This document shows positions 10,196 to 19,403 of a stretch of DNA of 64,000 nucleotides, one piece after another. The notes under the pieces were generated by a model that worked only from the letters and a program-made list of their open reading frames with translations, did no database searches and was not told the DNA's origin. This stretch comes from Microbacterium esteraromaticum (lineage in GTDB: Bacteria; Actinomycetota; Actinomycetes; Actinomycetales; Microbacteriaceae). Position 1 is the stretch's first letter; each line of letters begins with the position of its first letter. The stretch is taken from NCBI RefSeq assembly GCF_016907315.1, contig NZ_JAFBBS010000001.1:1922001-1986000 (forward strand), read 5' to 3'. Both the position numbers and the translations under genes were made by a program.

Positions 10196-10230
10196 CTGCG
10201 CCCCGACCTCGCGGATAGGCCGGGGCGCAG
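10196..10230 (-). terminator. Terminator-like hairpin after the DUF2075 helicase gene
   Basis: CTGCGCCCCG (10196-10205) pairs perfectly with CGGGGCGCAG (10221-10230) across a 15-base loop. It begins 15 bases past the helicase stop codon on the minus strand. A clear U-tract is missing, which is common in actinobacteria. Confidence 0.6.
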
Positions 10231-10244
10231 CGTGTACGTGTGGA

Positions 10245-11978
10245 TCAGAGAACGGGGCGCGCTCCTCGGAGCAAGCGGCACAGATCCTCGTCGCACACAT
10301 ACACGTACGTCCCGAGCATTCCCCGCGTGAGCAGCACGCCGTAGATGTTCCGGATGAACACGAGCAGGTCGTCATCGCCGAACGCATCCTTCAGATGCCC
10401 GGTGTTCTCCTTGCCCTTCTTGTCGCGGTACGCCTCGCGATCAGCGACGATCACCCCAGACGGAGAGAGACGCAGGTCGGGCCCGATGATCACGCCGGCG
10501 TAGTTCAGGTCGTACCCCTGCACGGTATGGATCGAGCCGACTTCGTCCAGCGACCCGGGTGCGTTGATCCAGTCCCTATCGGTGCTGTTCCAGCGCATCC
10601 GCTCGCCGTCGATCTCGATGTCGAACGCCGACGGATCGCGGCGCGACACCCAGTCCCATGCGTACCCGGCGACGAGGCGTGACAGCCCGACTTCGCGGTC
10701 GCGAGCTCGTATCTCGCGACGCATCTCACCGAGATCGTCGAAGAAGCGCAGGTCGTAGTCGCCAAGATCGGGGCGCTCGGGATGCTCGCCACGAAGAAGC
10801 GCACGGATGTATTCGACGTAGTCCGCACCGGCGCGCACCCGCATCTGAGTGGTCAGCCGGAAGTGGCGGTGCGAGTCCTTGGCATTGCGAAGCTCCTGCT
10901 CAAGAGTCGCCGGTGCGAGGTCGTGCGGACGAACGCTCTGCGCCCCATCGACGAGCAGCAACTGGTGGCGGCTGCGCTCCTTGATCCAGTCGAGCTGGGT
11001 GCGCGTCGGATCGTCCCAGCCGAACAGCTGCTTGTTGATCTCGCGGAACTTCTTGTTCTGCATACCCGACGCCTGATTCGCACGCTGATTCAGCCGGTGG
11101 GTTTCATCGACCAGGATCAGGTCGAACATGGCATCCGACTCTCCGATCTGAAACGGCGTGAGAACCATCGCCGAATCGAGCTTCGGCGTCTTCTTGAACA
11201 CCTGCCGTACCGACTGGCGCAGCGACTGCTGCGGAATCACGAGCGCCATCTTCAGATCGCGCAGCAGCTCTCGATTCTCGGGAGTGAAGAACTCCGCGAA
11301 CATCGAGTCGGGTTGGATGTCATCGTGGTCCTGGTAGTCGCGGATATCGGCGAGCAGCTTCATGAGGAAGATCGCGATGATCGTCTTGCCGGTGCCGGGG
11401 TCGCCTTGCACGACGAGTGTTGACCGGACACCCTGATGCTGCAGATCGGCCAGCAGGCCTTCGACGATGTCTTCGATCGCAATGGCCTGGTCGTCGGTGA
11501 GCGCCTTGAACGGCGAGAGCTTGAACAGGTCGCTGTTCTCGATTTGCGGAATGCTGCGGCTGAACAGCCCTTCGGCGCGCAGGGCCTCGAAGACGTCGCG
11601 GAACGACTCGCGGTAGATCTCGCGGTCGTAGTAGCGCGCATCGCTGAGTCCGTCGTTGCCGTTCAGGATGCTGTACTGACCGTCACCATGGAACCAGCGG
11701 ATCAGATGCGATTCGAGGTCGAGGCAAACGGACTTGTTGAAGCGCTCGCCTATGACGACGCGGATCGAATCGAGGCCTTCGTCCTTCTTGGAGCTGGCGA
11801 GGTGCTGCCGCATCCGAGATGCCGCATTCACCGTTTCGCCGACGTACAGCTTCTTGCTTCGCCCGGAGCTGTCGAGCACGTACACCACAGGCCAGTCGGT
11901 GTGCTGCGTATCGCTGCGTCCCCACGCGTCGACGTGCTGCCGATCGAAGAGCAGACGCTCGATGCTGAACTCGGTCAC
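10245..11978 (-). CDS. GIY-YIG nuclease domain fused to DUF2075 (Schlafen-group-3-like) helicase
   Basis: 577 residues. Residues about 30-115 look like a GIY-YIG domain: VYV (32-34) and YVG (45-47) for the two signature tripeptides, R55/R57, E89 in DLESHLI and an NGNDG segment near 106. Residues 185 to the end are a superfamily-1-type P-loop ATPase: Walker A GDPGTGKT (192-199), Walker B LILVDETHR (288-295) and motif HTVQGYDL near 500. DUF2075 proteins are predicted nucleic-acid helicases common in defence loci. Its ATG overlaps the MazG stop (ATGA), so the two are expressed together. A nuclease-helicase acting on foreign or damaged nucleic acid is inferred. Confidence 0.88.
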   Translation of the reverse strand: MTEFSIERLLFDRQHVDAWGRSDTQHTDWPVVYVLDSSGRSKKLYVGETVNAASRMRQHLASSKKDEGLDSIRVVIGERFNKSVCLDLESHLIRWFHGDGQYSILNGNDGLSDARYYDREIYRESFRDVFEALRAEGLFSRSIPQIENSDLFKLSPFKALTDDQAIAIEDIVEGLLADLQHQGVRSTLVVQGDPGTGKTIIAIFLMKLLADIRDYQDHDDIQPDSMFAEFFTPENRELLRDLKMALVIPQQSLRQSVRQVFKKTPKLDSAMVLTPFQIGESDAMFDLILVDETHRLNQRANQASGMQNKKFREINKQLFGWDDPTRTQLDWIKERSRHQLLLVDGAQSVRPHDLAPATLEQELRNAKDSHRHFRLTTQMRVRAGADYVEYIRALLRGEHPERPDLGDYDLRFFDDLGEMRREIRARDREVGLSRLVAGYAWDWVSRRDPSAFDIEIDGERMRWNSTDRDWINAPGSLDEVGSIHTVQGYDLNYAGVIIGPDLRLSPSGVIVADREAYRDKKGKENTGHLKDAFGDDDLLVFIRNIYGVLLTRGMLGTYVYVCDEDLCRLLRGARPVL

Positions 11979-12301
11979 GGATGCAGATCCGTGTACTTGG
12001 TGATGCGGCCCTTCGACAGTTCGACCGGGTACTTCGCGCGCGTCTTCTCCAGCTTGCTCATCACGATCTCATCGATGTCGACCCCGAGCCGCGCCGCCAT
12101 CTGGAAGCAGTAGGTGAGCACGTCAGCGAGCTCTTCTTCTACGCGCGCCTGATCGGGCGTCTGGCCCCACTGGAATAGCTCGAGCAGCTCAGCCGCTTCG
12201 ATCGAGATCGACTTCGCAAGATTCTCGGGGGAGTGGAACTGATCCCAATCGCGCTCGATGGCGAAGTCGCGGAGGGCCTGCAGCGTTGCGGGGGACGGCA
12301 T
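11975..12301 (-). CDS. MazG-like nucleotide pyrophosphohydrolase
   Basis: 108 residues, single-domain all-alpha NTP-PPase. The metal-binding pattern is clear: EAAELLELFQW followed by VEEELADVLTYCF, that is ExxE...ExxD. Proteins of this type hydrolyse nucleoside triphosphates to monophosphates and pyrophosphate, often cleaning non-canonical nucleotides. It is the first gene of a two-gene unit and its stop overlaps the start of the GIY-YIG/DUF2075 gene (ATGA). The fixed pairing suggests nucleotide depletion or signalling linked to the helicase-nuclease, which is inference. Confidence 0.9.
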   Translation of the reverse strand: MPSPATLQALRDFAIERDWDQFHSPENLAKSISIEAAELLELFQWGQTPDQARVEEELADVLTYCFQMAARLGVDIDEIVMSKLEKTRAKYPVELSKGRITKYTDLHP

Positions 12302-12379
12302 GGGGAGAACGTAGCAGGCGAGTGCTCACGCAGAGGCGAACTGCTCGGACACGGCGGTGGTGTAGGTAGATTGAGCCGC

Positions 12380-13267
12380 ATGACCCGTCCGGCAGTTGAG
12401 CAGCAGGCGATCCGAGAAGATGTTTTCCGATGGCTCGATGAGCGACGTGCAGCCGGCGCGTACGAATTCAGCCGCGCGGAGCTGATTGGCTACACGTACC
12501 AGGGAGAGCGCATCCCACTGCTTGATACGGGCCGTGGTATCCGAAATCCAGCGGACTTCGACTCAACCCTGACCATCATGACGAGCTCGAAAAGGACCGA
12601 GTACTCCGACGGGATCAGCGCCGAGGGGCTCGTGCGCTACTCGTATCAATCGCGCGACGGCGGCGACAATCGAAAGCTCCGCAACGCGTACGAGAACGCA
12701 GACCCGCTGGTCTACTTCCTCGGCGTCCGCGCCGGGTTCTTCGTTGCCTTCTACCCGGCTTACGTCGTGCACGATGATCCGGTTCGGCGCGAGGTTCATG
12801 TCGCGCTTGACGAGTCACTGAGGTTCTTCGATGACCCAATGCACTTGAACGAGATGGAGCGTCGATATGCGCAGCGTCTGGTGAAGGCGCGCCTACACCA
12901 GCCCATGTTTCGTGCGCGAGTGCTGCGCGCGTATGCAACCGCCTGCGCGATCTGCGAGTTGAGGCATGCTGAGCTACTCGACGCGGCACACATCGTCCCC
13001 GACGCGAGTAGCCACGGCGTCGCGGAAGTCACGAACGGTCTCGCCCTGTGCAAGCTTCACCACGCTTCGTACGATCGAAATCTCCTCGGCATCACACCGG
13101 AGTATGAGGTCCGAATCGATCGAGCATTGCTCGAAGAAATAGACGGCCCGATGCTCCGGCACGGCCTGCAAGACATGCATGGTAGAGCGCTGACGCTCCC
13201 GCAGAAGAAGGCGGACTGGCCTTCGCGTGACCGACTCGCTGAGAAATACGCCCAGTTCGCCGCATAG
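12380..13267 (+). CDS. HNH endonuclease with N-terminal DNA-reader-like domain
   Basis: 295 residues. The C-terminal HNH_2-type site is intact: AAHIVPDA with H204, NGLALCKLHH with N219 and H227/H228, then YDRNLLGI. The N-terminal 150 residues carry a conserved pattern (GERIPLLDTGRGIRNP, YSDGISAEGLVRYSYQ, LVYFLGVRAGFFVAFYPAYVV) seen in front of HNH domains of putative modification-dependent restriction enzymes. It diverges from the MazG/helicase unit. I infer a restriction-type nuclease that recognises a DNA feature through the N-domain. No companion methyltransferase is present. Start ATG at 12380 gives the conserved N-terminus. Confidence 0.87.
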   Translation: MTRPAVEQQAIREDVFRWLDERRAAGAYEFSRAELIGYTYQGERIPLLDTGRGIRNPADFDSTLTIMTSSKRTEYSDGISAEGLVRYSYQSRDGGDNRKLRNAYENADPLVYFLGVRAGFFVAFYPAYVVHDDPVRREVHVALDESLRFFDDPMHLNEMERRYAQRLVKARLHQPMFRARVLRAYATACAICELRHAELLDAAHIVPDASSHGVAEVTNGLALCKLHHASYDRNLLGITPEYEVRIDRALLEEIDGPMLRHGLQDMHGRALTLPQKKADWPSRDRLAEKYAQFAA

Positions 13268-13696
13268 TCAGCGCGACGCTTGGGACTGTGAAATCACCTT
13301 GCGCACAGCAGGAACGTCTGCTGGCGCCCAGTTGAGCTCCATAAGCCTGCTAATCTCCACCCACTGCAGTGCGGCGTGTTCTGACGGCCTTGGGCGGCCC
13401 TGCTCGACGACCGCGTAGTAGGTTGAAAGGCGAACAGCCCCGAACGGGTAAGCATGAGTCGTCGTGACGATGTGATCACCGATCGTGATGCCGCAGCCGA
13501 GCTCTTCGAGAATCTCACGTTCGAGCGCCGAGCGGTGGGTTTCATTGGTTTCGACCTTGCCGCCGGGGAACTCCCACATTCCCTCGAGTGCCCTACCGTG
13601 CCCGCGCCGTGCGGCCAGCACAGTTGAGTCTCGCGCGATGACGGCGCCGACGACGTCGATGAGCCCGCTCGCGTGGTGCGGTGACCGTGCGTTCAC
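13268..13696 (-). CDS. NUDIX hydrolase, 8-oxo-dGTP diphosphatase (MutT) type
   Basis: 142 residues from the GTG at 13696. The NUDIX box is complete: GGKVETNETHRSALEREILEELGC fits Gx5Ex7REUxEExGU (G, E, RE, EE, G all present). The leader DVVGAVIARDSTVLAARRGHGRALEGMWEFPGG is typical of MutT proteins that remove oxidised dGTP. It converges on the HNH gene with almost no gap. In this setting it may be simple housekeeping or part of nucleotide-level defence together with MazG. Confidence 0.9.
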   Translation of the reverse strand: MNARSPHHASGLIDVVGAVIARDSTVLAARRGHGRALEGMWEFPGGKVETNETHRSALEREILEELGCGITIGDHIVTTTHAYPFGAVRLSTYYAVVEQGRPRPSEHAALQWVEISRLMELNWAPADVPAVRKVISQSQASR

Positions 13697-13874
13697 GACA
13701 CCTCCCTCAGGTTGCGCCTTAGGAAGACAGGCTATCCACCCGGCCACTCAGCTCTCTACGGTGCGAAGTCATCTACCCGGGTTGGCTCCGATAGGACCGC
13801 CTCCGCTATGGTCAAAATCAGACTCTCTGAGGGGAGGGTCGCCATCACTCAGTCAATGGAGATCGGAGCGACTG

Positions 13875-14957
13875 ATGGAGTTCGCGGAGCGCCTGGAATT
13901 ACTCGCCGTCAAAATTCGAAATCAGGCCACAGCAATCGGCACCGAGGAAGCGACGAAAAACGCGTTCGTGATGCCGTTCATCTCAACGATTCTGGGTTAC
14001 GACGTCTTCGATCCGCTGGAGGTGGTGCCCGAGTTCACCGCTGACGTCGGAACAAAAAAGGGCGAAAAGATCGACTACGCCATCATGCGAGAAGGCGAGG
14101 TTCAGATTCTCATCGAATGCAAGCCGTCGATGGGCTCCTTGAAGATTGAACACGCTTCGCAACTGTTCCGATACTTCTCGGTCACTAACGCACGGATCGC
14201 TGTGCTCACGAACGGCGTCGTGTGGCACTTTTATACCGACCTCGACGCCCCCAACCGGATGGATGCTAAGCCCTTTCTTGTGTTGGACCTGCTTGACATC
14301 GACGAGACGTTGATCGCGGAGATTCAGAAGCTCAGCAAGGACAGCTTCGACCTCGACTCGATCATTAGCGCCGCCGAGGAGCTGAAGTACATCGGGGCGC
14401 TGAAGCGTGAGATCGCTGCGCAGTTCCGAGAGCCCACAGACGAGTGGATCAAGTTCTTCACTTCTCGCGTGTACGACGGTGCGTTTACCCAGCGTGTGCG
14501 CCAGCAGTTCACGGGGCTCGTGGGTAAGGCTGCGCAACAATTCCTCACTGAGCGTGTGAACGACCGGCTCAAGGCCGCACTTGGAGTAGGCGGGGGCAGC
14601 CAGGTGATAACTGCTCCGTCGCCGTCGAGTGCGGAGGTGGCCGAAGCGGACCTCGATCGTGACACCGAAATTGAGACCACGCTGGAGGAACTGGAGGGGT
14701 ACCAGATTGTGAAGGCGATCGCATGCGGTGAGGTCAAGCCACAGCGGGTGACGCAGCGGGATGCCAAGAGTTACTTCGCCGTGCTGTTGGACGACAACAA
14801 CCGCAAGCCGATCGCGCGCCTCCACTTCAACGGTAAGCAGAAATACCTCGGGTTGCTCGACGAAGACAAGACCGAGACGAGGCACCCGATTGGGGATCTC
14901 GATGAGATCTACGTCCATGCGGAGTCAATTCGACAAGCGGTGCGTCGCTACGCATGA
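13875..14957 (+). CDS. Stand-alone HsdR-N-like restriction nuclease (COG4748-like)
   Basis: 360 residues. The N-terminal half resembles the nuclease domain of type I restriction R subunits: EFTADVG, then EKIDYAI with D67 and QILIECKPS with E81-x-K83, which make a PD-(D/E)xK core. There is no helicase motor and no hsdM or hsdS gene nearby. The C-terminal 110 residues form a separate domain (EELEGYQIVKAIACGEV, ARLHFNGKQKYLGL) that also occurs in such orphan proteins. Start at 13875 follows GGAG; the frame is open further upstream but there it overlaps the NUDIX gene. Likely a restriction-type DNase of unknown trigger. Confidence 0.82.
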   Translation: MEFAERLELLAVKIRNQATAIGTEEATKNAFVMPFISTILGYDVFDPLEVVPEFTADVGTKKGEKIDYAIMREGEVQILIECKPSMGSLKIEHASQLFRYFSVTNARIAVLTNGVVWHFYTDLDAPNRMDAKPFLVLDLLDIDETLIAEIQKLSKDSFDLDSIISAAEELKYIGALKREIAAQFREPTDEWIKFFTSRVYDGAFTQRVRQQFTGLVGKAAQQFLTERVNDRLKAALGVGGGSQVITAPSPSSAEVAEADLDRDTEIETTLEELEGYQIVKAIACGEVKPQRVTQRDAKSYFAVLLDDNNRKPIARLHFNGKQKYLGLLDEDKTETRHPIGDLDEIYVHAESIRQAVRRYA

Positions 14958-15622
14958 GTGGCTGTCTGGGAGTCGCAAGCTGAGAGCTGCATCAGCGTCG
15001 GGCGAGCGCCGCATGGCTCAGTTAGCAGGCGCGACCGGCTCATCACATTCTGTCCGAGTGATGTGAATCCACCTGACTTGGTCCTGCCTGTGGGTAATCG
15101 CCCCTCGGCTCGAAGCCACTCGTCGAAAGTAGGCGCCCAGGTCCCGTAGGCGTTCCGATCTCGCGCTTCGCGCCAACGCCGGAGTGCCTTGATCGCTACG
15201 TCGAGGTAGTCTCTGGCGTTCTCGGACCAGATCGGGTCAAACTCGGCGGGCTCCATCTCTTCCCGGATACGCACAAGGACCGGGACGGCAACTCCACCGA
15301 GGGCTTCGCCGCAGGCCTCCTGAATGCTTCGCCTGAGGTGCAGCATCCGGGGAGGAAGGACGGGTGTCGCGGCGTTGAGTGAGTCGTACATGGCGTTGAG
15401 GACGTTATGCCACTCGCGGCCGGTCCATCTCGGATCGCTGGTGTGTAACGCACCGCGTAGTGATTGCGCGGCAATGATCGCCGCGTCCGCCAGCGCATGT
15501 CGCCTGGCGCGCCGAGCCTCGGCCTCGGCGTAACGGTGCCCGATACGACCGCTGACATAAGCGCCCGACGCGGCAGCGATCACGGTTGCGATTGCGGTAA
15601 CCAGCACTGGCATATCGACCAT
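14948..15622 (-). CDS. Membrane-anchored protein of unknown function
   Basis: 224 residues with one N-terminal transmembrane helix (residues 4-24), then a basic helical region (HRYAEAEARRARRHALADA) and a mostly helical soluble part. I do not recognise the family. Its 3' end overlaps the end of the HsdR-N-like gene by ten bases in convergent orientation. The last 30 residues (polar, Ser/Thr/Ala-rich) may be a late addition. Confidence 0.6.
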   Translation of the reverse strand: MVDMPVLVTAIATVIAAASGAYVSGRIGHRYAEAEARRARRHALADAAIIAAQSLRGALHTSDPRWTGREWHNVLNAMYDSLNAATPVLPPRMLHLRRSIQEACGEALGGVAVPVLVRIREEMEPAEFDPIWSENARDYLDVAIKALRRWREARDRNAYGTWAPTFDEWLRAEGRLPTGRTKSGGFTSLGQNVMSRSRLLTEPCGARPTLMQLSACDSQTATHA

Positions 15623-17906: not shown

Positions 17907-19403
17907 TTACGCGAACCCCCCGCTCAACCGCCCATGGAACGCCCCGCTCGCCGCGTTCATCCCGACGATCTCGACCGACTTCCCGTACGCGGCGTACTTC
18001 GTCTCGATGGCATCCAGCGCAGCGACGGTCGACGCATCCCACACGTGCGACTTCGACAGGTCGATCACGACCCGAGCGGGGTCCGCCGAGTAGGAGAACA
18101 GCGTGGTCAGGTCGTTGCTCGACGCGAAGAACAGCTCGCCCTCCACGACGTACCGGGCGACACCGTCCGACTCCGACCGCGTGACGCGCACGACGTGTGC
18201 GACCCGCCGCACGAACAGCACCGACGCGACCAGAACGCCGCCGACCACGCCGACGGCGAGGTTGTGGGTGAGCAGCACGAGCACGACGGTCGAGACCATC
18301 ACGAAGGTCTCGCTCTTCGGCATCCGCTTCAGGGTCGACGGACGAACGCTGTGCCAGTCGAAGGCTCCGATCGCGACCATGACCATCACCGCGACGAGCG
18401 CCGCCATCGGGATCGTCGCGACGAAGTCCCCGAACACGACGACGAGCAGAAAGAGGAAGATACCGGCGCAGAAGGTCGAGATGCGGGTGCGCGCGCCCGA
18501 CTCCTTCACGTTGATCATGGTCTGCCCGATGACCGCGCATCCGCCCATGCCGCCGAACGCTCCTGACAGGATGTTCGCCACGCCCTGCGCCCACGCCTCG
18601 CGGGTCTTCCGCGAATGTGTGTCGGTGATCTCGTCGACGAGCTTGGCGGTCAGCAGCGATTCGAGCAGGCCCACCACGGCCACGGCGAGCGCGAACGGCG
18701 CGATGATCGTGAACGTCTCCCACGTGAGCGGCACGTCGGGCACGAACAGCGACGGCAGGCTGCGCGGCAGCTCACCCTGATCGCCCACGGTCGGCACGCC
18801 GATCGTGAACGCCAGCACGACACCGGTCACGATCACGACCGACACGAGCGGCGCCGGCACGACCTTCGTCAGCCTCGGCATCACGATCATGACGACGATT
18901 CCCAGCGCGACCAGCGGATACACCATCCACGGCACGCCGATCAGCTGCGGAAACTGCGAGCTGAACACGAAGATCGCCAGCGCGTTCACGAACCCGACCA
19001 TCACGCTGCGGGGGATGAAGCGCATCAGCTTCGCCACCCCCAGCACTCCGAGGACCACCTGGAACACGCCGGCGAGGATCACCGTCGCGATGAAGTAGTC
19101 GATGCCGTACGTCGGCGCGACGGGCGCGATCACCAGCGCTACTGCACCGGTGGCCGCGGTGACCATCGCCGGCCGGCCGCCGAGGAAGGCGATCGACACC
19201 GCCATGATGAACGACGAGAACAGCCCCACCTTCGGGTCGACTCCGGCGATCACCGAGAACGCGATCGCCTCGGGGATCAGCGCGAGTCCGACCACGAGAC
19301 CGGCGAGCACCTCGCGGGTCAGCATCCGGGGGCTCTTCAGCGCCGTCAGCACAGAGGGGTTGGCCCGATAGCGGGCACGGTCGTCGCCGGTCATGACAGA
19401 CAT
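17907..19403 (-). CDS. SulP-family inorganic anion transporter
   Basis: 498 residues. The N-terminus (VGLALIPEAIAFSVIAGVDPKVGLFSS) is the SLC26/SulP signature around helices 1-3, about a dozen hydrophobic helices follow, and the C-terminal 90 residues form a short STAS domain (VVEGELFFASSNDL, ARVVIDLSKSHVWDAS). SulP proteins carry sulfate, bicarbonate or dicarboxylates with sodium or protons. No adjacent carbonic anhydrase or sulfur gene helps to define the ion. It is transcribed away from the NAD-GDH gene. Confidence 0.93.
   Translation of the reverse strand: MSVMTGDDRARYRANPSVLTALKSPRMLTREVLAGLVVGLALIPEAIAFSVIAGVDPKVGLFSSFIMAVSIAFLGGRPAMVTAATGAVALVIAPVAPTYGIDYFIATVILAGVFQVVLGVLGVAKLMRFIPRSVMVGFVNALAIFVFSSQFPQLIGVPWMVYPLVALGIVVMIVMPRLTKVVPAPLVSVVIVTGVVLAFTIGVPTVGDQGELPRSLPSLFVPDVPLTWETFTIIAPFALAVAVVGLLESLLTAKLVDEITDTHSRKTREAWAQGVANILSGAFGGMGGCAVIGQTMINVKESGARTRISTFCAGIFLFLLVVVFGDFVATIPMAALVAVMVMVAIGAFDWHSVRPSTLKRMPKSETFVMVSTVVLVLLTHNLAVGVVGGVLVASVLFVRRVAHVVRVTRSESDGVARYVVEGELFFASSNDLTTLFSYSADPARVVIDLSKSHVWDASTVAALDAIETKYAAYGKSVEIVGMNAASGAFHGRLSGGFA

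Follow-up and report, generated by a model that had tools for sequence, protein, structure and literature searches.

Gene content of the islet

A 64,000-nucleotide stretch of DNA from Microbacterium esteraromaticum (contig NZ_JAFBBS010000001.1, positions 1,922,001 to 1,986,000; here called the window), part of a genome of 3.24 Mb in one contig, contains an islet of five genes, designated A to E, at positions 10,245 to 14,957. We found that this islet is made up of two separable gene pairs, one formed by a helicase gene (A) and a pyrophosphatase gene (B) and the other by a NUDIX hydrolase gene (D) and a gene for a modification-dependent-type nuclease (C in the window), together with a neighboring nuclease gene (E). 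In the open reading frame (ORF) listing, the genes follow each other in the order A-B-C-D-E, with B and C divergent and C and D convergent (Table 1). The start codons of C and E lie downstream of the longest-ORF start, and their coordinates are given as corrected.

An earlier note, made from the sequence alone, had assigned the five genes to families. These assignments were borne out by Pfam matches over cut-off and by intact catalytic motifs: Walker A/B, ExxE...ExxxD, the Nudix box, HNH, and D...ECK are all unbroken in the islet proteins. The low G+C content that the note had described was also found, at 0.610 compared to a mean of 0.681 (standard deviation, 0.016; lowest value, 0.649) in 12 non-overlapping segments of equal length elsewhere in the 64 kb. 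Likewise, no methyltransferase, integrase, or transposase was detected over the curated cut-offs of Pfam, PADLOC, and NCBIfam among the islet proteins scanned, and a repeat scan around the islet yielded no convincing mobile-element terminal repeats.

Table 1. Genes and other features of the islet (positions in the window).
Feature	Position	Strand	Basis
A: GIY-YIG nuclease domain fused to Schlafen-group-3 (DUF2075) helicase, 577 amino acids	10245..11978	-	Pfam PF01541, PF09848
B: all-alpha MazG-like pyrophosphatase, dCTPP1/RS21-C6 family, 108 amino acids	11975..12301	-	PF12643; 4-bp overlap with A
B-C gap, probable promoter region of both genes	12302..12382		Gene layout
C: predicted SRA-fold reader with HNH nuclease, 294 amino acids	~12383..13267	+	PF13391; predicted fold
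D: NUDIX hydrolase, PADLOC candidate PDC-S07 group	13268..13696, alternative start 13747	-	PDC-S07, PF00293
E: orphan HsdR-N (PD-(D/E)xK) nuclease, 360 amino acids	~13875..14957	+	PF04313/PF13588 over cut-off
Inverted repeat, 14-nt arms, 93% complementary, 7-nt loop; possible terminator	10196..10230		Just beyond the end of A

The inverted repeat was missing from the terminator-like list of a separate scan, and a consensus scan of the B-C gap gave no sigma-70 match.

A and B are a gene pair

In A, both the GIY-YIG domain (PF01541, 27.3 bits; cut-off, 22.6) and the SLFN-g3_helicase/DUF2075 domain (PF09848, 218.4 bits; cut-off, 24) scored over cut-off, and the residues for catalysis and the Walker motifs are in place; YVGE, R, E, and the Walker residues were invariant across 14 homologs. 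The structure model of A (mean predicted local distance difference test score, 82.4) had SLFN11 as its first PDB match in Foldseek, at a low template modeling (TM) score of 0.32, and a sequence profile search found no solved relatives at 0.01. B matched the MazG-like family PF12643 at 72.5 bits (cut-off, 27), carries the ExxE...ExxxD metal motif, and had chains named dCTP pyrophosphatase 1 and RS21-C6 as its best PDB sequence matches (E value, 1.7e-23).

A match to A was present in 31 of 98 genomes (own genome counted), the closest named matches being from Microbacterium. All 30 distinct genomes tested (own included) had a homolog of B at most ~1.5 kb away from A. This test set comprised loci L002 to L022 of 21 relatives and 11 loci from a 296-genome class sample, with two repeats removed; eight partial A matches (L023 to L030) and two short matches lacking a locus were left out. 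In three of the class-sample loci, the match to A covered only the profile from position 333 on, and B was present even so. Similarly, 30 of the 31 GTDB loci with A carried B (exception, L076); in L088, B follows A. At greater distance the link weakens: among 12 plasmid loci encoding an A-like helicase (25 to 30% identity), only 4 had B, one of them in the archaeon Halalkalicoccus (plasmid records H28, H32, and H34 and five unlisted A records were left out of these counts). In the plasmid of Halalkalicoccus jeotgali, the MazG-like and DUF2075 genes form a pair at L251:4925-7167.

C is a predicted SRA-HNH nuclease

The C-terminal part of C matched HNH_2 (PF13391) at 39 bits (cut-off, 21) and contains CxxC, DAAHI, and N...HH. 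In the structure model, the N-terminal part adopts the SRA fold of 5-methylcytosine (5mC) readers, and the first Foldseek match of C was TagI. The Pfam SRA model gave no match, and the NCBIfam equivalog for phosphorothioate-DNA restriction (NF045808) matched only the HNH part, at 71.2 bits and thus below its cut-off of 180. Judged from its predicted fold, C is a divergent SRA-HNH protein. The islet contains a predicted reader-nuclease and no methyltransferase, and may as a whole represent type IV restriction. In the own genome, no C5-methyltransferase match was obtained.

D-type NUDIX genes adjoin modification-dependent-type nucleases

D matched NUDIX (PF00293) at 59.8 bits (cut-off, 21.1) and the PADLOC candidate PDC-S07 at 157.9 bits, and its Nudix box (GX5EX7REUXEEXGU) is complete. 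PDB sequence matches of D include MutT proteins, MutT2, and a CTP pyrophosphohydrolase. D is a NUDIX hydrolase related to 5-methyl-dCTP hydrolases, in a group that is akin to NudG but separate from it.

Among the 59 genomes of the genus, 12 (own included) contained 13 D-type matches, 11 of which adjoin a nuclease of modification-dependent type. These neighbors were C-type (G000, G021), SRA-HNH (G031), SRA-PD-(D/E)xK (G008, G010, G022, G045, G053), or SauUSI-like (G026, G033, G042); the two NUDIX genes lacking such a neighbor were a second copy in G010 and a truncated gene in G036. The NUDIX of G021 is joined to the C terminus of a ZacC homolog, with ZacB adjacent; at L123:10281-15489, a ZacC homolog with a C-terminal PDC-S07 NUDIX fusion and ZacB beside it lies convergent with a C-type SRA-HNH gene. 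The precomputed Pfam label of the SRA-PD-(D/E)xK family is PF26348, its conserved core is PD...EAK...Q, and some sources call its members ScoMcrA-like SRA domain proteins. In the reverse test on the same 59 genomes, all five intact SRA-PD-(D/E)xK genes had the NUDIX beside them. The copy in G007, which has no D-type NUDIX, is split over two frames; it lies beside A-B, at L232:5891-6860.

In a class set of 197 genomes, a search with the PDC-S07 model at up to 1e-30 yielded 48 matches, nine of at least 141 bits and the rest of ~120 bits or less. Six of the nine high-scoring NUDIX genes are next to a reader nuclease, which is SauUSI-like in four cases, SRA-PD-(D/E)xK in one, and C in one, compared to 0 of 21 lower-scoring ones (Fisher exact test, 1.4e-4). 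Two of these six, in G000 and G045, are also in the genus set. The lower-scoring genes were those with a locus (18 of 39 had none and were left out), and their neighbors were searched by tblastn against 13 reference nucleases, so that other kinds of reader would escape. Of 14 named control genomes, five also gave a match to the model at 1e-30; these five are excluded from the neighbor counts. At L213:6515-7966, a D-like NUDIX gene (141 bits) is divergent from a gene that by eye resembles thymidylate synthase.

On plasmids, 19 records matched D. Of these, H19 was left out of the count and 18 were judged, 17 from opened loci and H5 from its listing (nudG with ynjH). In 15 of the 18, a nuclease directly adjoins the NUDIX or is fused to it: 10 are of modification-dependent type, namely SauUSI-like (H1, H2, H6, H10, H17), McrA-like HNH (H9, H15, H16), MrcB_N (H11), and GmrSD_N with an AspBHI-type gene (H18). 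We take MrcB_N proteins to be readers of modified DNA. The McrA-like proteins were assigned as such because one of the three (L255) matched PADLOC mREase_IV and all three have near-identical starts and lengths. The other five neighbors (H4, fused; H7, H8, H12, and H14) were counted apart because HNH alone is no proof of modification dependence; in the last four, likeness to C is confined to the HNH part. An EVE domain in the HNH neighbors of Priestia (H7, H8, H12) and Sphingomonas (H14) was considered and is not claimed, Pfam giving no such match in L243, L254, and L257. In a Paenibacillus polymyxa plasmid (L241:4921-6384), HNH and NUDIX follow each other in one polypeptide, whose first 300 residues had no Pfam match at 0.001. 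The 15 plasmid cases are not all independent, since six come from Priestia megaterium and one from P. aryabhattai. In the Staphylococcus aureus record (H1), the D-type NUDIX lies directly upstream of SauUSI; the downstream open piece scored 1094 bits against solved SauUSI (7clg), and its frame is interrupted in this copy. The link between NUDIX and SauUSI was measured starting from the NUDIX genes. Taken together, its genomic context supports well that the D-type NUDIX is a recurrent partner of modification-dependent-type nucleases.

The two pairs recur jointly in four-gene arrays

Both pairs were found together as arrays of D, a nuclease (X), B, and A. In the window, the array is D-X-B-A with C as X. 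NUDIX (detected by tblastn), a SauUSI-like gene, B, and A follow each other in L059 (Microbacterium), and a Lactiplantibacillus plantarum plasmid (L235) contains four genes of the same order and domains, its A being ~30% identical. NUDIX, SRA-PD-(D/E)xK, B, and A occur in L061, L070, L071, and G010, and a P. aryabhattai plasmid (L237) has NUDIX, MrcB_N, B, and a DUF2075 helicase lacking the Pfam GIY-YIG domain. In two further loci, the nuclease lies outside the NUDIX (X-D-B-A; L065, G022), and two others have the order B-A-NUDIX-SauUSI-like (L084, G069). Thus, the gene in slot X varies and D, B, and A are kept, in Actinomycetota as well as in Bacillota. A Lactobacillus amylolyticus plasmid (L236:6941-12985) has NUDIX, GmrSD_N, AspBHI_N-Mrr_cat, and a GIY-YIG/Schlafen helicase in one run without B.

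E probably stands outside this arrangement. It matched HSDR_N (PF04313) at 41.3 bits (cut-off, 25.1) and the PADLOC fused REase-MTase model only below threshold (15.2 bits, nuclease part only); a type I restriction-modification system, with a motor in HsdR and with HsdM and HsdS as partners, was not seen, as E has the HSDR_N domain only and no HsdM or HsdS match was obtained among the eight surrounding proteins scanned. A sequence profile search gave no solved relatives at 0.1. E homologs in Microbacterium are 80 to 93% identical to the window copy. E adjoins the four genes in L059, L061, L070, and the window, and in L089 it is found with another NUDIX. In 9 of 10 further loci opened (exception, G085), it is not beside A-B, and its neighbors there are mostly ordinary by eye. 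E is therefore probably a frequent neighbor outside the D-X-B-A core.

A check among relatives, as proposed in the earlier note, revealed a patchy distribution: counting the own genome, full-length A was present in 19 of the 59 same-genus genomes, full-length C in 2 (own and G021), and E in 8. These differing distributions of A, C, and E, together with the separate loci of E, led us to reject a single five-gene unit. What stands of the proposed defense islet is a patchy, low-G+C, defense-like region without a methyltransferase.

The same data bear on the possibility that A-B, C-D, and E are unlinked defense genes that act separately and merely share one chromosomal site. A-B are found without C or D, six order-level loci have homologs of C without D, and E is mostly apart from A-D. 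In addition, a SulP transporter gene (window positions 17907-19394), which has close orthologs near A-B in L065, L066, L070, and L087 and one in G005, a genome that lacks A, marks a variable region. Nevertheless, we regard such a shared site as an unlikely explanation: the four genes are together again in another phylum, on plasmids, they occur in three gene orders in Actinomycetota (D-X-B-A, X-D-B-A, and B-A-D-X), and the pairing of NUDIX and nuclease across phyla, with its fusions, would be left unexplained. The SulP gene itself is a possible genus-wide insertion hotspot or variable-region marker; its ortholog in G005 lies near a C5-methyltransferase. An empty-site comparison at the window's own site revealed no clean empty site, because the genes directly on either side vary as well: for the ribokinase flank, the best matches listed in relatives are at most 42% identical, and the flank gene at 14948-15622 has only partial matches, in 2 of 57 other genomes.

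A possible cassette that guards its host by a clean nucleotide pool

Relatives of B and D act on modified dCTP. 5-Methyl-dCTP is hydrolyzed by Escherichia coli Orf135, mouse RS21-C6, and human DCTPP1 and is the substrate on which mycobacterial MutT2, a nonselective enzyme, has its highest activity (as described in passages of PMC10742078); DCTPP1 acts on dCTP itself and on C5-modified dCTP (passages of PMC7162842). B and D thus lie in or close to two known groups of 5-methyl-dCTP hydrolases with unrelated folds, and the substrates of B, C, and D proposed here follow those of their relatives. The hydrolase families, the reader-nuclease neighbors, and the four-gene arrays can be read together most simply if A-B-C-D form a modification-dependent (type IV-like) restriction cassette, with E as a neighbor, which protects its own host by cleaning the nucleotide pool. 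We put this forward tentatively, as a quite possible explanation. In such a cassette, C would read C5-modified cytosine via its SRA domain and cut the DNA via its HNH domain, while D, and by analogy B, would hydrolyze C5-modified dCTP (5-methyl- and 5-hydroxymethyl-dCTP). Modified cytosine from salvage or phage would not enter the chromosome of the host and expose it to cutting, the mark would be confined to foreign DNA, and the clean pool would stand in for the methyltransferase of ordinary restriction-modification. For A, we infer that its GIY-YIG nuclease and Schlafen-like motor might provide a second DNA-degrading arm tied to B.

The distribution of C5-methyltransferases (called at 1e-15 in the genus genomes) is partly consistent with this proposal. 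None of the eight genomes with NUDIX and a non-SauUSI-like SRA nuclease had a match, compared to 27 of the 51 others (p = 0.006), in a division into SRA and SauUSI-like nucleases that was chosen after the data had been seen. Around A-B, a motif search over 5 kb detected C5-methyltransferase or Vsr genes in 9 of 37 loci, and two more were recognized by eye (L060 and L074, in addition to L064, L066, L067, L069, L075, L081, L141, L148, and L151). No locus with an SRA-type nuclease among the 37 was found to have one by motif search and by eye, an avoidance that is only suggestive because the slots are few.

Several observations weigh against the proposed cassette and its self-protection. All three genomes with NUDIX and a SauUSI-like nuclease carry C5-methyltransferase matches, and when all 11 genomes with NUDIX and nuclease are considered, the difference (3 of 11 compared to 24 of 48) has a p value of 0.20. 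A rule that a reader nuclease excludes a C5-methyltransferase was accordingly rejected, as it fails in the three SauUSI-like genomes, and is kept as partial evidence only. D is below the NCBIfam cut-off for NudG/Orf135 (NF007834; 101.1 of 156 bits), so that its substrate may differ from that of NudG. No D-type NUDIX was found in the stretches around six homologs of C from other families (L124 to L129, 39 to 52% identical), and the C-D pairing is therefore seen only in the window and G021. Three of the nine high-scoring class NUDIX genes (G140, G283, G187) have no adjoining reader nuclease, 3 of the 18 plasmid records (H3, H5, H13) have no directly adjoining nuclease, and 8 of the 12 distant plasmid loci encoding an A-like helicase yielded no B. 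Finally, only 9 of the 37 loci (window apart) have a reader nuclease at up to 5 kb from A, and L087 has A-B alone, so that A-B may also act alone.

Two other roles for the hydrolases can be envisaged. B and D could act offensively, attacking modified precursors of phages such as hydroxymethyl-dCTP and forcing the phage to synthesize unmodified DNA that other restriction systems can attack, with C cutting whatever is modified nonetheless. Such a function fits the enzyme families and gene pairs equally well; all in all, we consider it distinctly unlikely. What counts against it is that the NUDIX also partners readers of 5mC, a base that is mostly made after DNA synthesis, and that the fusions of NUDIX with a nuclease or helicase hint at a constant stoichiometry between it and the cutter. 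In passages of PMC3874153, 5-hydroxymethylcytosine is incorporated after the phage has converted the dCTP pool, as an offensive function would have it, and SauUSI is listed as acting on 5mC.

The second role would be abortive: B and D would break down dCTP on infection and starve phage replication, while A and C would sense the infection or assist. Defenses based on dCTP deaminase or dGTPase starve phages by nucleotide depletion, and the finding of B next to A in every one of the 30 genomes tested would suit such a system. Hydrolysis of dCTP itself by DCTPP1 (passages of PMC7162842) points the same way. Even so, depletion seems very improbable to us, since the catalytic motifs of both proteins are intact and neither B nor D matched an additional domain, as in house-cleaning enzymes, and since two unrelated folds whose relatives lean to C5-modified dCTP argue for cleaning.

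This ordinary-looking islet brings to light a coupling, recurrent and little noticed, between modification-dependent nucleases and members of modified-nucleotide-hydrolase families. Self-protection is the most likely, if unproved, use of this coupling. It addresses the question of how modification-dependent enzymes that have no methyltransferase spare their own host when modified nucleotides enter the pool, to which a pool enzyme genetically tied to these nucleases, SauUSI included, would be a concrete and testable answer. If true, this would explain why the PDC-S07 NUDIX is flagged as a lone defense candidate, provide a substrate hypothesis for the MazG-like companion of the GIY-YIG/DUF2075 helicase, and supply a search rule for new modification readers, namely, to look beside D-type NUDIX genes. 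A wider form of the proposal seems rather doubtful to us: pool-guarded restriction would be general, with many unrelated builds of modification-dependent nuclease (SRA-HNH, SRA-PD-(D/E)xK, SauUSI/DUF3427, McrA-like HNH, MrcB_N, and GmrSD/AspBHI-type) sharing one dedicated C5-modified-dCTP NUDIX that replaces the methyltransferase, and the four-gene array would be its fullest form.

Comparison with known systems

Couplings of NUDIX with type IV enzymes or of DUF2075 with GIY-YIG have one relevant mention in the accessible parts of the open-licence literature searched, which does not imply their absence in print: a figure legend of Bell et al. places MutT homologs beside SauUSI homologs in Streptococcus, with no function proposed there (PMC7641849). 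A text-search count of the word "nudix" in the accessible text of the TagI paper (PMC6212794) was zero. MazG is counted by DefensePredictor among predicted defense domains (passages of PMC13092281), and DUF3427 is predicted to bind modified DNA (passages of PMC7159879).

The combination of families, which the earlier note had been unable to name, can be named in part, as SRA-HNH modification-dependent restriction with a NUDIX partner. Like C, the SRA-HNH endonucleases TagI, ScoA3IV, and ScoMcrA have an SRA-type fold ahead of HNH, whereas C escapes the Pfam SRA model and stays below the NF045808 cut-off. A D-type NUDIX directly precedes the type IV enzyme SauUSI (DUF3427) in Staphylococcus, and SauUSI-like proteins occupy slot X in L059 and L235; in the window, in contrast, X is an SRA-HNH protein. 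B shares PF12643 with dCTP pyrophosphatase 1/RS21-C6 but is shorter, bacterial, and encoded with a 4-bp overlap with a GIY-YIG helicase gene. D shares the Nudix box and sequence matches with Orf135 (NudG) and MutT2, while it differs from Orf135 by its score below the equivalog cut-off and its separate high-scoring group in the PDC-S07 search. SLFN11 has in common with A the PF09848 helicase domain; A has a GIY-YIG nuclease domain where SLFN11 has its Schlafen core. PDC-S07, which from its naming we take to be a single-gene candidate in PADLOC, is the group that D matched, and here its NUDIX is a partner of modification-dependent-type nucleases.

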